A stretch of DNA of 64,000 nt, taken from assembly GCF_001715195.1 (NCBI RefSeq), contig NZ_MDWE01000042.1, forward strand, positions 1-64,000. The letters are read 5' to 3'. The number at the start of each line of letters is the position of its first letter. Position 1 is the first letter of the stretch. This stretch comes from Rhodohalobacter halophilus (lineage in GTDB: Bacteria > Bacteroidota > Rhodothermia > Balneolales > Balneolaceae). The translations under genes and the position numbers were made by a program. The notes under the pieces were generated by a model. That model was given only the letters and a program-made list of their open reading frames with translations, did no database searches and was not told where the DNA came from. Shown here piece by piece: positions 31,233 to 51,734 of this stretch.

Positions 31233-32435
31233 CTACAACTGTTGAGTTGAATACCGTACCACTTTTTTGAAACCGTCATGATCCTGTTCAACAGCATAAA
31301 CACTGCCATTTTTTACAGTTTGAATCATGCTCTCTCTTGGCCAGTTAAAAATAGCTTCCACAGGGCTCGTTTCATGAACAGGGTTTAAAATCCACCACTC
31401 AAATACATTTTCATTTTCGGGGATCATTGCCACCCAGATATTACCTGAATCATCCGTCAACATGGTGTAGATTGCCGGCCAGGTTTGCGGGTAAATTGCA
31501 CTCTCACGAGTAAGTTGTAACTGACGGTTATGGCTGAACTGTTCGCTGACCAATCTTTCTGCATCCAACGTTGCACGGGCAAATGGGTATGTAATTTTTC
31601 TGATGATTTCTCCGCTCAAATCTCGCTCCACTATTTCAAACTCTGTAGTTCGGGCGGTAAAGAAAACACCGTTTACTGTCTCTGTTATTAACGACCTTTC
31701 CGGATAAGGTAGCTGAAATGCTGAAGGCCGACCGGCATGATCACCAATAAGAAAATGATCTTCTTTCAGCGAAAAAAGGTTCAGTTTCTGTATTTCCCCA
31801 TCGTGGTTACCTCTTCGATAAAATCGTGACCTACCGTAAAATATAGCCGGATCTCTGTCGTCTCGATACTCAATTAAATAGTTTCCGTCCTGCATAAGCT
31901 GAATGGGTGCAGGGAAATATACCACCGAATCATCTTCAACTTGATACAATGCTGAATGGAACTCAGTACTCCCCAAAGTTTGATTATGCTCCAAATCAAA
32001 CCTAGTAACTCTGCGAAGCTGATCATCGAAAACATGCAGTGTATCTCCATTTACACGGACATTTCTGATGCTCTCAAATTCTCCGGCCTGATTTCCATAT
32101 CGGCCTAACGTATCAAGTAGCTCACCCTTCGGTGAGAACTGATAAACCGCTCTTACACGATGCCTTTCTGCAGAAATATACACCACACCATTTGGGGCCA
32201 CATCAATTGAAGGAATGTGTTCGATGAACAGCGAGTCGTGATATTCACCCTCATATGTCAGGGTAAATGCACTCTTTTTGATGGTTTGAACATCTGCTGA
32301 TTCCAAGGAGAGAATCGGCACGTCACTCATATTATCTGTTTCACTGTTGCATGCTAAAACAAGTATAAATAGACAAAACAGAACGACACATCTGTCAAAT
32401 CTCAAACTCTTCCGAAGTTTTCTATAATTAGGCAC
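31233..32435 (-). CDS. 6-bladed beta-propeller lipoprotein
   Basis: 400 residues, start GTG. The N terminus ends in the lipobox LFILVLAC, so the protein is membrane-anchored and faces the periplasm. The body shows repeated propeller blade patterns (IPSIDVAPNGVVYISAERHRVRAVYQFSPKGELLDTLGRYGNQAGEFESIRNVRV), the consensus of the 6-bladed beta-propeller family common in Bacteroidota. The role is unknown, possibly binding or signalling. It begins 14 bases downstream of the cysteine synthase gene on the same strand, so it may be co-transcribed with it. Confidence 0.8.
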   Translation of the reverse strand: MPNYRKLRKSLRFDRCVVLFCLFILVLACNSETDNMSDVPILSLESADVQTIKKSAFTLTYEGEYHDSLFIEHIPSIDVAPNGVVYISAERHRVRAVYQFSPKGELLDTLGRYGNQAGEFESIRNVRVNGDTLHVFDDQLRRVTRFDLEHNQTLGSTEFHSALYQVEDDSVVYFPAPIQLMQDGNYLIEYRDDRDPAIFYGRSRFYRRGNHDGEIQKLNLFSLKEDHFLIGDHAGRPSAFQLPYPERSLITETVNGVFFTARTTEFEIVERDLSGEIIRKITYPFARATLDAERLVSEQFSHNRQLQLTRESAIYPQTWPAIYTMLTDDSGNIWVAMIPENENVFEWWILNPVHETSPVEAIFNWPRESMIQTVKNGSVYAVEQDHDGFKKVVRYSTQQL

Positions 32436-32449
32436 AGCCCCTCATGGTG

Positions 32450-33436
32450 TTAAGAATCCAGAAAACCGTGCTCCTTCATCCACTCATCATTGTAGATTTT
32501 TGAGGTATATCGGGTGCCGCTGTCAGGTAAAATCACCACCATCAGATCGTTCTCACCAAGGTTATTTTCTCGGGCATACTGTAATGCTCCGTGAACGGCC
32601 GCGCCGCACGAACCGCCAATAAAAAGCCCTTCCTCTTTGGCCAAGCGCCGCGTCATTTGAAATGCATCTTTATCACACACCTGAACGACTGCATCCAGAA
32701 GATTTATATCCACATTTTTGGGAATGATATCTTCACCGATTCCTTCTGTTAGATAGGGTTTTACTTCACTTTTATCAAACTCGCCGGTTTCAAAATATTT
32801 TTTATATACAGATCCCACACTATCCACACCAACCACTTTCACATCGGGATTCTGCTCTTTCAGATATTTTGCAGTACCGGTAATGGTTCCCCCGGTTCCC
32901 ATCCCTGCCACGTAGTGGGTTATTTTTCCTTCGGTCTGCTCCCATATCTCCGGACCGGTGGTTTCATAGTGAGCCTGTTTATTACTCAGATTGTCATACT
33001 GATTTGGGTAGTATGAATTTGGTATCTCTTCGCTTAACCGTTTAGCTACCGAATAGTAGCTGCGTGGATCGTCCGGCTCTACATTGGTTGGGCATACTCT
33101 AACTTCGGCACCCAACGCCCGCAGAAGATCAATTTTCTCCTGGCTCTGCTTATCGGTAGTGGTAAAAATACATTTATATCCGCGTACTGCAGCAACTAAA
33201 GCCAATCCCATTCCGGTATTCCCTGAGGTTCCCTCAATAATGGTTCCGCCGGGCTTGATCAATCCTTTCTCCTCAGCATCATCAATCATCTTCAGGGCAA
33301 TCCGATCTTTGATACTCTGACCCGGGTTCAGATATTCAACTTTTGCCGCAACCGTAAGTTTAAGGCCATCGGTTACTTTATTTAGCCGAACCAGCGGCGT
33401 GTTTCCAATCGTATCAATTATTGAGTTGTGAATCAT
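32450..33436 (-). CDS. Cystathionine beta-synthase-like/cysteine synthase PLP enzyme
   Basis: 328 residues, without the C-terminal CBS regulatory domain pair. The PLP lysine is K43 in PGQSIKDR. The substrate loop EGTSGNTGMGLALVAA and the phosphate loop GTGGTITGTAKYL are present. Two segments, KPYLTEGIGEDIIPKNVD and VILPDSGTRYTSKIYNDEWMKEHGFL, resemble eukaryotic cystathionine beta-synthase more than CysK, so condensation of serine (or O-acetylserine) with homocysteine is plausible. O-acetylserine sulfhydrylase activity remains possible. With mtnA next door and a methionine operon at 45.6 kb, this fits a set of sulfur amino acid genes. Confidence 0.85.
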   Translation of the reverse strand: MIHNSIIDTIGNTPLVRLNKVTDGLKLTVAAKVEYLNPGQSIKDRIALKMIDDAEEKGLIKPGGTIIEGTSGNTGMGLALVAAVRGYKCIFTTTDKQSQEKIDLLRALGAEVRVCPTNVEPDDPRSYYSVAKRLSEEIPNSYYPNQYDNLSNKQAHYETTGPEIWEQTEGKITHYVAGMGTGGTITGTAKYLKEQNPDVKVVGVDSVGSVYKKYFETGEFDKSEVKPYLTEGIGEDIIPKNVDINLLDAVVQVCDKDAFQMTRRLAKEEGLFIGGSCGAAVHGALQYARENNLGENDLMVVILPDSGTRYTSKIYNDEWMKEHGFLDS

Positions 33437-43485: not shown

Positions 43486-45339
43486 ATGAAAAAATTGGCT
43501 GCCGCACTGTTTCATTTTTATTTTTTCATTGTATTCGTCACATCATCGTCAATCGCTCAATCGTCCTCAATCACCGTTCCTGTAATTGAAGACGGCCAGG
43601 CACAGGTGATAGAAGCATTTAACAATCCGGAAGAGTGGATCCGCCATGATCTATGGGTTGAAACCGATTTTGATACCGACGGTGATGGAAAACCGGACCG
43701 AATGTATGTATCGGTAACACGACCTGCCCAAACCGAAAACGGTGACCTTCAACTTCCTGTAATCTATGAAACCAGTCCCTATTACGCCGGCACGGCACGC
43801 CCGCCATACGATTTCTTCTGGGATGTAAAACAGGAACTGGGCGAGGAGCCACCTACTCGAAAACCGGGACCGGATGTGCAGCGACGCGGAGAACGCCCGA
43901 TCATATCCAACTCGCATATCGCTACCTGGGTTCCAAGAGGCTTTATCGTCGTTCACTCAACATCACCCGGAACAGGATTGTCGGACGGATCCCCTTCTGT
44001 TGGCGGTGAAAATGAAGCCCTGGCACCAAAAGCAGTGATTGATTGGTTAAACGGACGCGCAAACGGATACTCTACACGCGATGGAGATGAGATCGTTGAG
44101 GCGTACTGGACCAATGGAAATGTAGGTATGACCGGCACCTCCTACAACGGATTTTTACCATTTGCTGCCGCAACAACCGGTGTAGATGGTTTGAAGGCGA
44201 TAATTCCTGTTGCTCCTGTGACTTCGTTTTATATGTACTACCGATCTAACGGATTGGTACGTTCGCCGGGCGGTTACCTTGGTGAAGACGTTGATGTACT
44301 TTATGATTTTGTGCACAGCGGTGACGAATCGAAACGGGAGTATAACAACCGCACCATGCGGGATGGAATTATGGCAGAGGGCTTGGACCGCAAAACCGGC
44401 GACTACAACGATTTCTGGGAAGAGCGCGACTACCTGAAACAAATGGATGGCTACAAAGCCGCTACGCTTTTTGCACACGCCTTTAATGACTGGAACGTTA
44501 TGCCTGAGCACACCTATCATGCGTATGAAAAACTGAAAGAGATGGGTGTACCATCGATGGTGTACTATCACCAGGGCGGGCACGGCGGAGAACCTCCGCA
44601 TGAACTGATGAACCAGTGGTTTACACGGTATCTTTTTGGGGTTGAAAACGGAGTTGAAGATCTGCCCCGCTCGTGGATTGTCCGGGAACGCGATGAGCGT
44701 GACGAACCCACTCCGTATGATGACTTCCCTCACCCCGCAGCCTCTGACGTTACCTTCTATCTGTCGCCCGGAGCCCCTGAACGCGGTGGTCTGACGCTGA
44801 GCAGGCCTGCCAAACAGGGCACCGAAACGCTGACCGACAACTTTTCCTTTACCGGTTCATCACTGGCCCGGGCTGAGTGGACCGGTCACCGGCTGATCTA
44901 CCTGACGCCCGAACTTGCCGATTCGGTGCACATCTCGGGAGCTGCATCGGTATCGATAACCCTGGCCAGCAGCAAGCCGGCTGCCAACCTCACGGTCTGG
45001 ATGGTCTCCCTGCCGTGGAATGACGGGCGGAACTCTCAAATTACCGACAATATCATCACCAAAGGGTGGGCGAGTCCACAGAATCACAGCTCCATCCACC
45101 AGAGTGAACCGCTCGAACCCGGAACGTTTTACACCGTTGAGTTTGACCTTCAGCCTAACGATCAGATCATTCCCGCCGGGCAGCAGATCGGACTGATGAT
45201 CTTTTCAAGCGATAAAGAGTATACCCTTTGGCCGCAACCGGGTACGGAGTTAACGGTCGACCTCGGACGCACCACGCTGACGCTTCCGGTTCTCTATGGT
45301 GAGGAGGCATTTTCAGGGATTGACTGGAACGGCAACTGA
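43486..45339 (+). CDS. Secreted CocE/NonD family hydrolase (X-Pro dipeptidyl-peptidase S15-like)
   Basis: 617 residues from the ATG at 43486, which gives a signal peptide ending SSSIAQ; the frame is open further upstream but adds a non-signal stretch. The catalytic domain has the nucleophile S219 in TGTSYNGFLPFAA, an Asp in HAFNDWNVMPEHTY and the His in YYHQGGHGGEPPH. A C-terminal jelly-roll with VWMVSLPWNDGR and DLQPNDQIIPAGQQIGLMIF follows. The family includes cocaine esterase and prolyl dipeptidyl-peptidase. The first half has composition like its neighbours; from about 44640 onward G+C rises, which is odd within one gene. Confidence 0.88.
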   Translation: MKKLAAALFHFYFFIVFVTSSSIAQSSSITVPVIEDGQAQVIEAFNNPEEWIRHDLWVETDFDTDGDGKPDRMYVSVTRPAQTENGDLQLPVIYETSPYYAGTARPPYDFFWDVKQELGEEPPTRKPGPDVQRRGERPIISNSHIATWVPRGFIVVHSTSPGTGLSDGSPSVGGENEALAPKAVIDWLNGRANGYSTRDGDEIVEAYWTNGNVGMTGTSYNGFLPFAAATTGVDGLKAIIPVAPVTSFYMYYRSNGLVRSPGGYLGEDVDVLYDFVHSGDESKREYNNRTMRDGIMAEGLDRKTGDYNDFWEERDYLKQMDGYKAATLFAHAFNDWNVMPEHTYHAYEKLKEMGVPSMVYYHQGGHGGEPPHELMNQWFTRYLFGVENGVEDLPRSWIVRERDERDEPTPYDDFPHPAASDVTFYLSPGAPERGGLTLSRPAKQGTETLTDNFSFTGSSLARAEWTGHRLIYLTPELADSVHISGAASVSITLASSKPAANLTVWMVSLPWNDGRNSQITDNIITKGWASPQNHSSIHQSEPLEPGTFYTVEFDLQPNDQIIPAGQQIGLMIFSSDKEYTLWPQPGTELTVDLGRTTLTLPVLYGEEAFSGIDWNGN

Positions 45340-45385: not shown

Positions 45386-45393
45386 TAAATTTG
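45386..45393 (+). promoter_or_regulatory. Possible -7 promoter box for the methionine leader
   Basis: TAAATTTG fits TAnnTTTG and lies 35 bases before the leader-peptide ATG. No clear -33 box. Confidence 0.35.
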
Positions 45394-45427
45394 CATTTTC
45401 TTTGCAGACAGCAATATCTTAAAGCCA

Positions 45428-45514
45428 ATGAAAAATTCTACCCGACATAGCGGCATTTTTGCAATCTGTACCATGTGTATGTGTATGCATAGCTACATAT
45501 CGTACAGAGGGTAA
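45428..45514 (+). CDS. Met/Cys-rich leader peptide (28 codons) of a transcription attenuator
   Basis: ATG at 45428, TAA at 45512. The 28-residue product is MKNSTRHSGIFAIC, then TMCMCMHSYISYRG. Codons 14-20 read Cys-Thr-Met-Cys-Met-Cys-Met: three UGU and three AUG codons in seven. Seven bases at the end of the frame (CAGAGGG, 45505-45511) are exactly complementary to CCCTCTG (45542-45548), which is also part of the left arm of the terminator just downstream. A ribosome stalled for lack of Cys/Met would leave 45505-45511 free to form the antiterminator; one that reaches the stop would cover it and let the terminator form. This is the classic attenuation geometry. No characterised family with this peptide is known to me. 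Confidence 0.72.
   Translation: MKNSTRHSGIFAICTMCMCMHSYISYRG
45467..45506 (+). other. Possible pause hairpin inside the leader reading frame
   Basis: TGTAC (45467-45471) can pair with GTACA (45502-45506) and ATGT with ACAT further in, with a small internal loop. It spans the Cys/Met codons and overlaps the antiterminator strand, as the 1:2 hairpin does in classic attenuators. Confidence 0.4.
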
Positions 45515-45539
45515 CTTTTCATGAAATAATTTATTTGAT

Positions 45540-45568
45540 GGCCCTCTGGAAACAGCAGGGCCTTTTTT
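45540..45568 (+). terminator. Attenuator terminator of the leader peptide
   Basis: Stem GGCCCTCTG (45540-45548) with CAGcAGGGCC (45553-45562, one bulged C), tetraloop GAAA, then T6. Its left arm competes with the antiterminator strand 45505-45511. Confidence 0.82.
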
Positions 45569-45585
45569 GTTCAGTTTAACTGAAC
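45569..45585. promoter_or_regulatory. Operator-like palindrome between attenuator and riboswitch
   Basis: GTTCAGTT-T-AACTGAAC: 8-bp perfect arms around one base. Candidate binding site for a dimeric regulator, or part of a second promoter feeding the riboswitch. Confidence 0.5.
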
Positions 45586-45608
45586 ATCGTTCTTTATCAA
45601 AACTGAGT

Positions 45609-45731
45609 CTTATCAAGAAAGGTGGAGGGACAGGCCCTGTGAAACCTTAGCAACCGCCCCGGTTTATCCGGGGGCCAGGTGCTAAATCCTGCCCGTCACG
45701 GTTTGAATGAACCGCGACAGGGAAAGATAAG
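45609..45731 (+). ncRNA. SAM-I (S-box) riboswitch aptamer
   Basis: P1 CTTATC (45609-45614) pairs with GATAAG (45726-45731). The core shows the S-box consensus: GGTGGAGGGAC, GGCCC, TGAAACC, AGCAACC, then GGTGCTAAATCCTGCCC, and a P4 hairpin around CGGTTTGAATGAACCG. High SAM is expected to close P1 and allow the downstream terminator, switching off the methionine genes. Confidence 0.95.
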
Positions 45732-45768
45732 AAGTCTGGCTCCCCTGTAGTTCACAGGTTCTGTATAA

Positions 45769-45818
45769 AGCCTCTTCTGAAAATCTTTCCCGCAGGATTT
45801 TCGGAAGAGGCTTTTTTT
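45769..45818 (+). terminator. Expression-platform terminator of the SAM riboswitch
   Basis: 17-bp stem (45769-45785 with 45796-45812, one mismatch), 10-base loop, then T7. It precedes the first structural gene by 35 bases. Confidence 0.88.
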
Positions 45819-45853
45819 GTTTGAATCCAATTTAATTCCAAACTGCAGGACCC

Positions 45854-46333
45854 TTGAAAAGCACATTTAACAACTGGTATGAAACAAAGATGCGGGCAAC
45901 TCCGGAGTTGTCGGATGAGACCGACCGGATTGAGCAGCACCTCGACCGGATCCGGACTGTCGCGATCGTCGGGCTTTCACGCAACCGGCACAAAGACAGC
46001 CATTTTGTGGGCCGGTACCTTCAAAAGGCCGGATATACCATCTACCCCGTCAACCCCGGGGCCGACGAGATACTGGGCGTCAAAGCTTACCCCGACCTGA
46101 AATCAATTCCCGAAGCGGTGGATGCAGTCGACATTTTTGTGAAACCCGAGTCGGTACCCGCAGTTGTTGAGGCATCCATCGCCATCCGCCCAAATATTAT
46201 CTGGCTTCAGCTGGGCACCGGGAATCACCCGGATCAAAAAGCGATCGCTGAGCAAAATGGGATCACCCTGGTGCAAAACCGGTGCATGAAAGTGGATCAC
46301 CAGTTCCTGATTCGCGACCGGGACAACGTCTGA
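45854..46333 (+). CDS. CoA-binding domain protein, first gene under the SAM riboswitch
   Basis: 159 residues, start TTG with an AGGA box a few bases upstream; an ATG twelve codons later is an alternative. Single Rossmann-type CoA-binding domain: VAIVGLSRNRHKDSHFVGRYLQKAGYTIYPVNP, YPDLKSIPEAVDAVDIFVKPESV, and the C-terminal NRCMKVDH. It is a paralogue of 12833-13267. The biochemical role is not established, but placement directly under a SAM riboswitch and before metY suggests a link to sulfur amino acid metabolism (inference). Composition here is clearly G+C-rich compared with most of the window. Confidence 0.85.
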   Translation: MKSTFNNWYETKMRATPELSDETDRIEQHLDRIRTVAIVGLSRNRHKDSHFVGRYLQKAGYTIYPVNPGADEILGVKAYPDLKSIPEAVDAVDIFVKPESVPAVVEASIAIRPNIIWLQLGTGNHPDQKAIAEQNGITLVQNRCMKVDHQFLIRDRDNV

Positions 46334-46375: not shown

Positions 46376-47719
<1,344 letters not shown>

Positions 47720-47842: not shown

Positions 47843-48928
47843 ATGAGTCACGTAAAATTCGCATACTGGGTTCCCAATGTCAGCGGCGGGCTTGTGGTTT
47901 CAACGTTGCCGCAACAGACCGACTGGACATTTGAGGCCAACAAACGATACGCACAAACAGCAGAACAGAACGGCTTTGATTACGCACTGCTTCAAACCCG
48001 CTTTATTGCCAGCTATGGCGCCGACAAACAGCTTGAAGCAGCTGCACTGGGATCGGCACTGGCTGCCGTTACCGATAAAATCAACCTGATTTCAGCGGTT
48101 CATCCGGGTTTATGGCATCCGGCCGTCTACGCCAAAATACTCTCTACAATAGACCGGGTAAGCGGCGGACGCGCAGCCGTAAATGTGGTCAGCGGATGGT
48201 TCAAGGGCGAGTTCACCTCCTTTGGCGAACCCTGGCTGGAACATGATGAGCGCTACAGGCGATCGGAAGAGTTTATTAAAGTTCTGCGACAGCTCTGGAG
48301 TGAGGAGAAAGCCAATTTCAGAGGCGACTTCTACCAAATCAGTGATGCCCCCCATAAACCCAAACCGGTTCGCGAAGAGGGTATTCCCATCTTCCAGGGC
48401 GGCAACTCCAAGGCAGCCCGGCAGATGGCTGCCAAAGTCTCCGATTGGTATTTCATGAACGGCAATACCAACCAGGGAATACGGGATCAGATCGATGATG
48501 TAAAACAGCTCGCTCAAAAAGAGGGCCGGGAAGTCAAGTTTGCACTCAACGGTTTTGTGATTGTACGCGATACCGAAGAGGAGGCAATCGCACAGCTGGA
48601 ACAGATCATCACCCATGCCAACGATGACGCCGTTGAAGGGTTTCGAAAAGCCGTTCAGCAAGCCGGTGCCTCATCAAAAGAGGGCGAAGGAATGTGGGCC
48701 AACTCTTCCTTCGAAGACCTGGTGCAGTACAACGACGGATTTAAAACCGGGTTGATCGGCACCCCTGAACAGGTGGCCGACCGAATCATCGAATTGAAAG
48801 AGCTGGGGGTAGACCTGGTGCTAACCGCATTTCTCAATTACGATACGGAACTCGAGGAGTTTGGAAAAAAAGTGATCCCGCTGGTCAGGGAAAAGGAACA
48901 GGAACGCCAAAAGGGAGCCGCGGCCTGA
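47843..48928 (+). CDS. sfnG: FMNH2-dependent monooxygenase, dimethylsulfone monooxygenase (SfnG)-like
   Basis: 361 residues of the LLM bacterial luciferase-like family. The opening HVKFAYWVPNVSGGLVVSTLPQQTDW and the block GGRAAVNVVSGWFKGEFTSFGEPW match the SfnG/SsuD subgroup; EGIPIFQGGNSKAARQMAA and GNTNQGIRDQIDD are further family marks. Known SfnG enzymes convert dimethylsulfone to methanesulfinate with reduced flavin from a partner reductase, not seen here. In a SAM-controlled methionine operon, release of sulfur from organosulfur compounds for methionine synthesis is a reasonable inference. Substrate unproven. Confidence 0.82.
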   Translation: MSHVKFAYWVPNVSGGLVVSTLPQQTDWTFEANKRYAQTAEQNGFDYALLQTRFIASYGADKQLEAAALGSALAAVTDKINLISAVHPGLWHPAVYAKILSTIDRVSGGRAAVNVVSGWFKGEFTSFGEPWLEHDERYRRSEEFIKVLRQLWSEEKANFRGDFYQISDAPHKPKPVREEGIPIFQGGNSKAARQMAAKVSDWYFMNGNTNQGIRDQIDDVKQLAQKEGREVKFALNGFVIVRDTEEEAIAQLEQIITHANDDAVEGFRKAVQQAGASSKEGEGMWANSSFEDLVQYNDGFKTGLIGTPEQVADRIIELKELGVDLVLTAFLNYDTELEEFGKKVIPLVREKEQERQKGAAA

Positions 48929-48986: not shown

Positions 48987-49526
48987 ATGAGTACAACAAT
49001 CAAAACCACCCCCAAGCACGATCCGGAACTGGAAAAATCACTTTTAAACCTGATTGAAGGGATTCGGAGCGACCCCAAACAGGCCGGTGCAACCTTTAAG
49101 GCTCGTTCAGAGCTTACCGAGGGATTCCTGGCCGATATCAATGTCCGGGATTTCACGTTCCACTCTGATGAACCCAAAGACCTGGGCGGCACCGACAAGG
49201 GGCCCAACCCGGTTGAATATGTACTCGGCGCCTTTGCCGCGTGCCAGGAAATTGTCATCAAAGCGTACGCCACCGTACTGGGCATCCGGGTATCGTCGGT
49301 ACGTGTCGATGTACAGGGCAAACTCGATCTGCACGGATTCCTGAACCTCTCTGACGAGCGGCCGGGCTTTACCGGAGTCACCTACCAGACCGTGATTGAA
49401 ACGGATGAAACGGATGAAAAAAAGCTGAAACAGCTTGAAGAGTTCTCGGTTAACAGATGCCCGGTGCTCGACATCGTTCGCGATCCGGTGCCCGTTGAAG
49501 GCTCCATTCAATTTCAACAACCCTAA
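48987..49526 (+). CDS. OsmC family protein
   Basis: 179 residues. The N-terminal extension is followed by the OsmC fold: TFHSDEPKDLGGTDKGPNPVEYVLGAFAACQEIVIKAYATVLGI contains the first active-site Cys, and NRCPVLDIVRD the second, the peroxidatic/resolving pair of OsmC/Ohr-like proteins. These reduce organic peroxides or act on acyl or sulfur-adduct substrates; the exact role here is unknown. Its place after sfnG, under sulfur control, suggests sulfur redox handling. Confidence 0.85.
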   Translation: MSTTIKTTPKHDPELEKSLLNLIEGIRSDPKQAGATFKARSELTEGFLADINVRDFTFHSDEPKDLGGTDKGPNPVEYVLGAFAACQEIVIKAYATVLGIRVSSVRVDVQGKLDLHGFLNLSDERPGFTGVTYQTVIETDETDEKKLKQLEEFSVNRCPVLDIVRDPVPVEGSIQFQQP

Positions 49527-49613: not shown

Positions 49614-50660
49614 ATGAATCAAGGAATTACGCAAACCCGCTTGGAGGATCATTTTATCACTGAATCGGGTGCCCGGCTGGAGTCGCCCGAAGTTGCCTAC
49701 AAGACGTGGGGAACGCTCAATGGCGGCCGCGACAATGTGGTTCTGATCTGTCATGCTTTGACCGGCCATGCGGCTGCCGATGAGTGGTTTCCCGGCATCT
49801 TTGGCAAGGGCAACATCTGCGATCCCGATCAGCATTTCATCATCTGCATCAATGTTCCCGGAAGCTGCTACGGATCGGTGGGCCCGCAGTCGGTCAATCC
49901 GCAAACCGGCCGGCCCTATCGCAACGACTTCCCCGAACTGACTATCAGGGATATGGTGCGATTTCAGCAGCAGTTTCTGGATCAGCTGGGTATCAACGGA
50001 ATTGAACTGGTCATCGGCGGTTCCATGGGCGGCATGCAGGCGCTGGAGTTTATTATCATGGATCGCCGTTCTCGTTCAGCTGTACTGATCGCCATGGGGA
50101 AAGCTCATACCCCTTGGGCGATCGGTATCAGCCATGCTCAGAGAACTGCCATCACCAACGATCCCGGCTGGAAAGATGGGAACTACGAACTGAATGAGGG
50201 TCCGTTTCGTGGTGTAGCTGCTGCCCGAATGATGGCAATGATCACCTATCGGGCACCGGAGGATTACAACCGAAAATTCGGACGAAAGCTTCAAAATGAA
50301 GATGGTCAATTTCAGATTGAGTCCTACCTGAACCACCAGGGTGAAAAGCTGGCCAAACGGATGGATGCTCATACCTACATTACGCTGACAAAAGCAATGG
50401 ATTCACACGATATCTCCCGTGGCCGCAGTGACTTTGAACAGGTTCTGGACCGGGTAGAAATTCCGGTTCAGGTCATAGGTATCCGTTCAGACCACCTCTA
50501 CCCCATTGCTGAACAGAAAGAGCTTGCGGACCTGCTCCCCAATGGGCGATATGCTGAGATCGATTCACCTGCAGGCCACGATGGATTCCTGATTGAATTT
50601 GATCAACTCAATGAAATCATCATCCCATTTGTAAAACATAAAGAACTTCAATTTATCTGA
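49614..50660 (+). CDS. metX: Homoserine O-acetyltransferase
   Basis: 348 residues. Alpha/beta hydrolase-fold acyltransferase with LESPEVAYKTWGTLN, the catalytic Ser137 in VIGGSMGGMQALEF, Asp in GIRSDHLYPIAEQ and His in SPAGHDGFLIEF. It activates homoserine with acetyl-CoA for MetY. The first third is G+C-rich like the upstream genes; base composition falls toward the window average after about 50100, which marks the right edge of that block. hom starts three bases after its stop. Confidence 0.94.
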   Translation: MNQGITQTRLEDHFITESGARLESPEVAYKTWGTLNGGRDNVVLICHALTGHAAADEWFPGIFGKGNICDPDQHFIICINVPGSCYGSVGPQSVNPQTGRPYRNDFPELTIRDMVRFQQQFLDQLGINGIELVIGGSMGGMQALEFIIMDRRSRSAVLIAMGKAHTPWAIGISHAQRTAITNDPGWKDGNYELNEGPFRGVAAARMMAMITYRAPEDYNRKFGRKLQNEDGQFQIESYLNHQGEKLAKRMDAHTYITLTKAMDSHDISRGRSDFEQVLDRVEIPVQVIGIRSDHLYPIAEQKELADLLPNGRYAEIDSPAGHDGFLIEFDQLNEIIIPFVKHKELQFI

Positions 50661-50663
50661 ACC

Positions 50664-51734
50664 ATGTCACATTTACACGCCATTAAAAAATCATCTGCTC
50701 CATTCATCAAACCCAAACCCGTGAAAAAAGTCTTTATTGCCGGAGTCGGTGCTGTAGGGTGCACACTCATTCAGCAGCTGGAAAATCACCCATCATTAAA
50801 TGTCTTGGGATATTGTAATTCACGTCACGTTCAATGGCTTGATGGGGAGAAGGTGCATTACCAGCATAAAGACTTGCAAAAAGCTCCCGCAAAGAACTGG
50901 GATGAAATCATCAAAAAACTTACAACCTATAAACGGGGAAGCGTTATTTTTGTAGATGCAACAGGAAGTCCTGAAGTCTCTACACTGTACCCTTCACTGT
51001 TTGAACATGGTATTCATATTGTAACACCGAGTAAACTGGCCAACACTCAGAGCCAGGAAACTTTTGACAAACTTCACAGGATTGCCTTGGAAAATGAAGC
51101 CGAATTCTATTTTGAAACAAATGTAGGTGCCGGGCTTCCTGTTATCAGTACGGTCAAGAACTTAATTGCATCGGGTGATGAAATCCTTGAAATCAGCGGA
51201 GTGGTGTCCGGTACGATGACTTATCTCTTCTCTGAGCTGGAAAAAGGAGCCTCATTCAGCGAAACGGTCAATAAAGCCCGAACTCTCGGTTACGCAGAAC
51301 CCGATCCCCGGGATGATCTATCCGGAGAAGATGTAGTACGCAAGTTCCTGATTTTAGCCAGAGTTTGTGGTATTAAGATAGAACGGGATGAGGTGGCAGT
51401 TGATTCGCTTATTCCTGAACATCTTCAAAACGTGGAGCCGGGTCAATTTCTGGAGGGGCTGAAGGATTCAGACAAGGATTGGGAAAAAAGAATTGCTGAA
51501 GAATCTCAAAAGGGAAAAGTATTGCGCTACACAGGTAAACTGACAGGTAGGAAAATCAGTGTAGGCATTGAGGCTGTACCTAAACTCTCTGCATTGGGCA
51601 GTTTAACCGGAACCACAAATCTCATTACTCTTCGCACCAAACGATACAACGATCAACCTTTAACCATACAGGGTCCCGGGGCAGGAAAAGAGGTTACCGC
51701 TGCCGGCGTTTTGGCAGATCTCCTGAAAATATAG
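50664..51734 (+). CDS. hom: Homoserine dehydrogenase
   Basis: 356 residues without an aspartokinase domain or C-terminal ACT domain. The NAD(P) fingerprint VFIAGVGAVGCTLIQQLENHP lies at about 23-43. The substrate domain has ATGSPEVSTLYPSLFEHGIHIVTPSKLANTQSQ, FYFETNVGAGLPVISTVKNLI and the catalytic region YAEPDPRDDLSGEDVVRKFLILAR (catalytic Lys in RKF). It resembles the dehydrogenase half of ThrA. It makes homoserine for metX and for threonine. Last gene of the riboswitch operon, followed by a strong terminator. Confidence 0.92.
   Translation: MSHLHAIKKSSAPFIKPKPVKKVFIAGVGAVGCTLIQQLENHPSLNVLGYCNSRHVQWLDGEKVHYQHKDLQKAPAKNWDEIIKKLTTYKRGSVIFVDATGSPEVSTLYPSLFEHGIHIVTPSKLANTQSQETFDKLHRIALENEAEFYFETNVGAGLPVISTVKNLIASGDEILEISGVVSGTMTYLFSELEKGASFSETVNKARTLGYAEPDPRDDLSGEDVVRKFLILARVCGIKIERDEVAVDSLIPEHLQNVEPGQFLEGLKDSDKDWEKRIAEESQKGKVLRYTGKLTGRKISVGIEAVPKLSALGSLTGTTNLITLRTKRYNDQPLTIQGPGAGKEVTAAGVLADLLKI

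Follow-up and report, generated by a model that had tools for sequence, protein, structure and literature searches.

The window analysed here is a 64,000-nt stretch of Rhodohalobacter halophilus contig NZ_MDWE01000042.1 (GCF_001715195.1). Downstream of an S15-peptidase gene, whose stop codon lies at 45339, and ahead of a putative operon for methionine synthesis, the sequence carries the elements of a leader-peptide attenuator. The original prediction had placed an ORF at 45428-45514, CAGAGGG at 45505-45511, an exactly complementary CCCTCTG at 45542-45548 and a T6 terminator at 45540-45568; all these coordinates hold, and the complementarity is exact. A probable promoter, as well as a SAM-I riboswitch at 45607-45733 with its own terminator, had been missed. 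The features of the attenuator itself are as follows.

45391 to 45420, forward strand: probable promoter of the Bacteroidota type, with TTG at 45391-45393, a 21-nt spacer and TATCTT at 45415-45420, found by pattern scan.
45428 to 45514, forward strand: leader peptide ORF of 28 codons, reading MKNSTRHSGIFAICTMCMCMHSYISYRG followed by the stop codon.
45467 to 45487, forward strand: putative sensor codons Cys14-Thr-Met-Cys-Met-Cys-Met20, read from the sequence, the Cys/Met cluster being kept in relatives.
45505 to 45511, forward strand: predicted antiterminator strand (region 2), CAGAGGG, the exact complement of 45542-45548.
45540 to 45568, forward strand: intrinsic terminator 1, predicted by folding, with CCCTCTG as its left arm and a T6 tail.
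45542 to 45548, forward strand: shared arm (region 3), CCCTCTG, able to pair with region 2 or inside the terminator, and covarying with region 2.
45568 to 45586, forward strand: TGTTCAGTTTAACTGAACA, a perfect inverted repeat of small size that separates terminator 1 from a boxA-like motif; no role is assigned to it.

In the leader ORF, Cys and Met occupy codon 14 and codons 16-20, codon 15 being Thr. A cluster of codons for the product amino acids of the operon, which makes homocysteine/Met, is therefore present. The promoter match (TTG-N21-TATCTT) ends only 7 nt upstream of the leader ATG, so that the transcript may be nearly leaderless; the message may begin almost at the leader start codon, but no transcription start has been mapped. 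The same 21-nt spacing recurs in many relatives, and a pattern scan finds the strict pattern ahead of 36 of 88 leaders. Both this promoter-like site and the purifying selection seen in the leader frame alone (see below) fit a translated ORF, in the absence of translation data.

Folding assigns -16.3 kcal/mol to terminator 1 (z -2.9 against shuffles) and -16.5 kcal/mol to the alternative antiterminator (z -3.8). The two structures are thus almost equal in energy and both lie well below their shuffles; an intrinsic terminator separates the leader ORF from the genes. Region 2 lies over the last leader codons in the window and 3' of the stop codon in most congeners. Counted from the first base of that codon, its first paired base is found at -11 to +7 nt in all scored loci, close enough throughout to be reached by a terminating ribosome, in agreement with the spacing argument made at the outset. 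On this geometry, region 2 would be covered once the ribosome has arrived at the stop codon, and left free by a stall early in the Cys/Met run. In some relatives the last Cys/Met codon is merely 4-8 nt upstream of region 2; a stall at that codon would cover region 2, and only earlier stalls would work. A pause-type hairpin over the Cys/Met codons, also part of the original prediction, fares less well: region 2 is 76% paired to the leader vs 64% with shuffled leaders. Sequestration of region 2 is therefore barely above the shuffled controls, and a pause or protector hairpin remains weakly supported. As for the inverted repeat that follows the terminator, a hairpin below -2 kcal/mol occurs at its position in just 42 of 94 relatives, which makes its conservation doubtful.

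Terminator 1 is followed by a second regulatory module and then by the genes. These, together with a distant gene of possible relevance to cysteine metabolism, are given here.

45589 to 45595, forward strand: boxA-like element GTTCTTT, a motif between terminator 1 and the SAM aptamer.
45607 to 45733, forward strand: SAM-I (S-box) riboswitch aptamer, RF00162, 83.6 bits vs a gathering score of 44.4.
45767 to 45819, forward strand: intrinsic terminator 2, the riboswitch expression platform, a 20-pair stem followed by a T run.
45854 to 46333, forward strand: CoA_binding_2 domain protein (PF13380, E 4e-37), first gene of the putative operon.
46388 to 47719, forward strand: metY, O-acetylhomoserine sulfhydrylase (TIGR01326, 692.9 bits, over the curated cut-off).
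47843 to 48928, forward strand: sfnG-like dimethylsulfone monooxygenase, sulfur scavenging (TIGR04021, 596 bits, over the curated cut-off).
48987 to 49526, forward strand: OsmC-family protein (PF02566), by synteny often beside metY/metX in relatives.
49614 to 50660, forward strand: metX, homoserine O-acetyltransferase (NF001209, 382.5 bits, over the curated cut-off).
50664 to 51734, forward strand: homoserine dehydrogenase, hom (PF00742).
32450 to 33436, reverse strand: CBS-like gene (TIGR01137, 480 bits, below the curated cut-off).

The riboswitch is identified by a covariance-model score over gathering and by a terminator platform 3' of the aptamer, SAM binding being inferred. Since this module and its own terminator stand between the attenuator and metY, the Cys/Met leader is, as far as the sequence can tell, the first of two sensors in one 5' region. 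The motif between them, GTTCTTT, is found no more than 45 nt (mostly 15-25 nt) upstream of the aptamer in 93 of the 100 SAM loci of the metY type in the order and in none of the 15 loci of a second type. The same letters also occur 5' of 16S rRNA in relatives, e.g., GTTCTTTGAGAATATTGAG. GTTCTTT resembles the boxA of rRNA antitermination sites; no function is assigned to it here.

MetY produces homocysteine, the precursor of Met. The named near relatives of the metY of the window are Balneolaceae and Aliifodinibius salipaludis. The sfnG-like gene sits between metY and metX, and sulfur scavenging thus appears to be controlled by the same two-sensor leader. Elsewhere in the window, on the minus strand (31233-33436), the CBS-like gene is followed by a 400-aa ORF without an NCBIfam family; the two could possibly serve reverse transsulfuration. 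Genes resembling cysE and cysK are present elsewhere in the genome. The cell may therefore link homocysteine and Cys, in which case joint sensing of both sulfur amino acids would be sensible, an inference from gene content.

To what degree the leader is conserved was assessed on SAM-riboswitch loci fetched from relatives, two loci (G046 and G055) having been fetched twice. Within the order Balneolales, to which the genome belongs, 88 of the 100 metY-type SAM riboswitches that were fetched have a Cys/Met-rich leader upstream (30 of the 36 genera), vs none of the 15 loci of the second type. Behind one of the latter, the gene pair checked encodes a homocysteine S-methyltransferase and a pterin/B12-binding protein, which by their annotation make up a split MetH (metH-like). 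Of 141 regions lying 5' of SAM riboswitches, 80 have at least five Cys/Met within 8 residues, vs a single one of the 141 reverse complements and 0.14% of dinucleotide shuffles; statistically, the cluster is far from chance. None of the 79 leaders for which a pairing was called lacks either Cys or Met. Cys is the more frequent residue (345 vs 236 Met), and both of its codons are in use (TGT 239, TGC 106). In within-genus pairs of leaders, pN/pS amounts to 0.46 in the leader frame vs 0.97 and 1.03 in the other two frames, which indicates that the peptide sequence is constrained and not the RNA alone.

The peptide is not conserved letter by letter. The original prediction had proposed CTMCMCMHSY as a conserved tail; in 147 relatives, the exact pattern TGYACNATGTGYATGTGYATG matches only the genome of the window and one congener (G009). 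The letters CTMCMCMHS(Y/H) are thus not conserved among these relatives, and the part of the proposal that stands is a Cys/Met cluster near the stop codon, kept upstream of metY. A cultured member of the Balneolaceae with the element is Aliifodinibius salipaludis WN023 (L202/L081), whose leader reads MKRIQKHICRLCCMCMCMPHLQPED. The loose pattern WKBx7 has at least hundreds of matches in the own genome and is of no use for locating more leaders; no Cys/Met leader was seen in the fetched loci around cysE-like matches or around the CBS-like gene of congeners.

This freedom of sequence also bears on what the peptide might do. Soft metals can be bound by peptides rich in Cys and Met, and TnaC is a known case of a nascent chain that arrests the ribosome in response to a metabolite. 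The cluster could accordingly bind a metal such as copper, or the nascent chain could arrest the ribosome on a metabolite, without codon supply being read at all. We regard this as very unlikely, given that the order and number of Cys and Met vary freely among leaders without any fixed motif, that the N-terminal half is variable, and that no Pfam or NCBIfam model covers the peptide; moreover, the named downstream genes belong to Met/sulfur metabolism and the partner sensor is one for SAM.

Twelve metY-type loci were not scored as leader-bearing; they comprise all five scored loci of one genus plus singles. Of these twelve, L100 and L172 have a weaker frame with Cys. In the genus concerned, g5 (L058, L165, L188, L189 and L190), the leader attenuator is absent and the metY-type SAM riboswitch is kept, apparently a natural loss of the attenuator. 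In another genus, g24 (L095, L098, L103 and L168), the leader is kept without a U-tract terminator, and the two ends of the leader ORF are complementary to each other, e.g., ATTATCTCACA/TGTGAGATAAT, beside the boxA-like motif.

Comparative evidence for a switch also comes from covariation between region 2 and the terminator arm. The letters of the two strands differ by lineage: CAGAGGG/CCCTCTG in the genus of the window, elsewhere CGGAGGG/CCCTCCG, AGGGCTT/AAGCCCT, CGAAGGGC/GCCCTTCG or GGAGAGCCT/AGGCTCTC. Over 80 distinct sequences, pairing of region 2 with its own arm averages -12.95 kcal/mol vs -10.18 kcal/mol with swapped arms (sd 0.24; best of 2000, -11.02), and leader windows further upstream pair with the arm at just -3.4 to -4.2 kcal/mol. 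Of the 88 leader-bearing relatives, 84 have a called terminator hairpin; in a few loci (e.g., L038, L047-L049 and L054) the automatic calling took a neighbouring hairpin, which makes the test on 80 sequences conservative. With these loci left out and a single sequence drawn for each of 29 genera (20 draws), own arms give -14.2 kcal/mol and swapped arms -11.1 kcal/mol (mean z -8.1), and none of 1000 permutations reached the observed pairing. Compensatory types are spread across many genera: at one helix position, 5 genera have A-T and 12 have G-C, and at the one after it 7 have G-C and 11 have A-T. The register for these counts was the best pairing among GGG-like motifs near the stop codon, so that the compensatory percentages lean towards pairing; the swap tests are independent of that choice. 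Since permutations break the phylogeny, the z-scores and significance overstate independence. With these reservations, comparative sequence data back a mutually exclusive antiterminator. The attenuator proposal would have been refuted by an unconserved frame with freely varying hairpins; instead, frame and cluster are conserved, and the covariation that it anticipated between 45505-45511 and 45542-45548 is found in swap tests and compensatory changes alike.

These data also leave very little room for the trivial explanation, already disfavoured, that the hairpin at 45540-45568 merely terminates the S15-peptidase gene and that the ORF is there by chance. The hairpin does lie about 200 nt past the stop codon of that gene, but a promoter-like site and a conserved frame intervene, the block of leader, region 2, terminator, SAM riboswitch and metY recurs in 30 genera and in other classes, and the terminator arm covaries with the leader. 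This reading can hardly be maintained.

The anatomy, the conserved frame and Cys/Met cluster, the covariation of the two strands and the riboswitch are computed results. Taken together, they make it highly probable that the metY-metX operon is preceded by a ribosome-mediated transcription attenuator with a mixed Cys/Met run and, as a second module in series, by a SAM-I riboswitch. That the leader is translated, that the ribosome stalls and the polymerase reads through, that both amino acids are sensed and that the two sensors form a logic gate are inferences. With ample charged tRNA-Cys and tRNA-Met, the ribosome would reach the stop codon and cover CAGAGGG, and the terminator at 45540-45568 would form. 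If either charged tRNA were scarce, the ribosome would stall in the Cys/Met run, region 2 would pair with CCCTCTG and RNA polymerase would pass. The next checkpoint would be the SAM aptamer, whose own terminator is expected to form at high SAM. The leader would thus be read serially, charged tRNA-Cys/tRNA-Met first and SAM second, and since both terminators must be avoided, full transcription of the operon would require a shortage of Cys or Met together with low SAM. The attenuator interpretation originally put forward is supported by the conserved frame, purifying selection and covariation, with the qualifications that a SAM-I riboswitch follows in series, that the pause hairpin is weak and that joint sensing is inferred. 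Against a serial attenuator speak the 12 metY-type loci not scored as leader-bearing, the lack of a U-tract terminator in g24 and the weak sequestration of region 2; expression, ribosome-profiling and ligand data are lacking.

Joint sensing of Met and Cys is inferred from codon content and from the presence of both residues in each of the 79 leaders with a called pairing. The leader might instead sense essentially cysteine, the Met codons being incidental. Cys is indeed the commonest leader residue, some leaders are dominated by it (those of Cytophagales end in CCCCC, and L100 has ACSKQLCKQC), and actinobacterial cys operons have Cys-only leaders (PMC1262725). Nevertheless, no leader with a called pairing lacks Met, which dominates elsewhere (MSMSMSMMSC in L183, NMMMCMMM in L273, VMMCMM in L234), and the run in the window is one of alternating Met and Cys codons. 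We therefore consider a cysteine-only sensor unlikely, although it is the strongest of the rival readings.

Another possibility is that leader translation acts mainly on riboswitch folding or on Rho access, through coupling or in a boxA-dependent manner, and not on terminator 1. The four g24 loci, whose leader lacks a U-tract terminator and can pair at its two ends, would fit such an output, as would the boxA-like motif between the two modules and the leaders of Cytophagales, which lie 3' of the aptamer without an evident U-tract terminator. In nearly all other relatives, the window included, there is a terminator hairpin that covaries with the leader, and an output of this kind is rather improbable as the main one. 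A serial attenuator acting at terminator 1 remains the preferred reading for the window.

The SAM-riboswitch loci sampled from other families of the phylum have no leader upstream of the aptamer, and the leader had on that basis seemed confined to the order. This notion was overturned by searching upstream of metY in other bacteria, where similar leaders were found in 17 of 100 regions vs 0 in reverse complements, in Ignavibacteria, Cytophagales, Gemmatimonadota and others. They come in three arrangements. In the first, a leader-terminator precedes the SAM riboswitch as in the window (Ignavibacteria-type loci L214, L221, L236, L244 and L253). In the second, the SAM aptamer comes first and the leader starts shortly after its end (Pontibacter L248 and L271, Thermonema L257, Cyclobacteriaceae L267, as well as L288 and L290); these leaders have terminal runs such as MCMCCCCC and show no evident U-tract terminator. 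The reversed order of the Cytophagales type is possibly Rho-dependent, and the riboswitch may control the leader itself. The third lacks a SAM riboswitch at gathering score (Gemmatimonadetes L245, Eisenbacteria L240, L308 and Melioribacter L234). Region 2 and the arm form 11 contiguous pairs (-28 kcal/mol) in L245, and no SAM riboswitch was found in the genome of L308. In Melioribacter L234 the leader attenuator is doubled: two Cys/Met elements follow one another some 400 to 80 nt ahead of metY, each with a region 2 that matches its own arm (CGAAGGG/CCCTTCG and GTGAAGGG/CCCTTCAC).

A wider reading, which we offer tentatively as conceivable but short of probable, is that these leaders form an undescribed, widespread family of dual-codon (Cys + Met) attenuators, a movable module that would control metY across the Bacteroidota/Ignavibacteria/Gemmatimonadota neighbourhood. 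The module would stand before a SAM-I riboswitch (Balneolales, Ignavibacteria), directly behind the aptamer and so perhaps under riboswitch control itself (Cytophagales), on its own, or in two copies (Melioribacter), and in Balneolales the rRNA-like boxA would add Nus-factor control to make a three-input leader.

The paradigm for such elements is provided by the classical trp, his, thr and ilv attenuators, with which the window shares a short promoter-near ORF rich in the regulated residues, one arm common to terminator and antiterminator, a region 2 at the stop codon and biosynthetic genes downstream. In comparison, the window element combines two sulfur amino acids in one cluster, is followed by a riboswitch and belongs to a type found in Balneolales and other bacteria without a described element in the open-access literature searched. 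The SAM-I module scores as a full member of RF00162 with a terminator platform, but is here the second sensor behind a leader-peptide attenuator. A leader ending in ARCMCRRMCAF, metL, has been described as Met-dependent upstream of metNIQ in Streptomyces lividans (PMC8079986). Like the window leader, it has its Cys and Met codons in a cluster and is followed by methionine genes, but it precedes an importer and has no typical intrinsic terminator, nor has a SAM riboswitch been reported for it (PMC8079986). The window leader is not upstream of metNIQ; the genes downstream are those for the CoA-binding protein, metY, sfnG, osmC, metX and hom. Actinobacterial leader peptides upstream of cys operons and cbs also have Cys-codon runs near the stop codon and sulfur genes downstream, but contain Cys only and lack terminators, Rho having been proposed (PMC1262725); the Cytophagales variant, ending in CCCCC without a U tract, is closer to them than the window element is. 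More than one leader element in a single 5' region, short ORFs or a riboswitch among them, is likewise known from the tandem attenuators of Salmonella mgtCBR (PMC3641672) and from the M. tuberculosis B12 riboswitches with uORFs (PMC11260477), which respond to other signals and have no Cys/Met attenuator before a SAM riboswitch. Leader peptides have also been predicted for amino-acid operons in a flavobacterium (PMC9723704), and a cysS uORF is known in Rhodobacterales (PMC8632094).

The peptide had not been recognised as a described attenuator, and no description of a Cys/Met leader before metY or in series with a SAM riboswitch was found in the open-access literature, Rfam, Pfam or NCBIfam, subscription papers not being excluded. 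Pfam and NCBIfam have no model for these leader peptides, and at a lax threshold Rfam returned nothing credible for the attenuator, the sub-threshold matches being to microRNA, snoRNA and histone stem-loop families. Both modules are of known kinds; the dual-codon sensor and the combination appear to be undescribed in the open-access literature searched.

If the inferred function is true, a natural two-sensor leader RNA reads tRNA charging for two sulfur amino acids and then the end product SAM. Since the order of the sensors differs between lineages, the combination and exchange of RNA regulatory modules can be studied directly. The presence of a boxA-like motif before one type of SAM riboswitch and not the other raises the question of Nus factors at riboswitches. 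Leader-peptide attenuation with covariation support is extended to Balneolales and several other groups, and for metY regulation in these bacteria the analysis would, if it is right, provide an explicit, testable rule.
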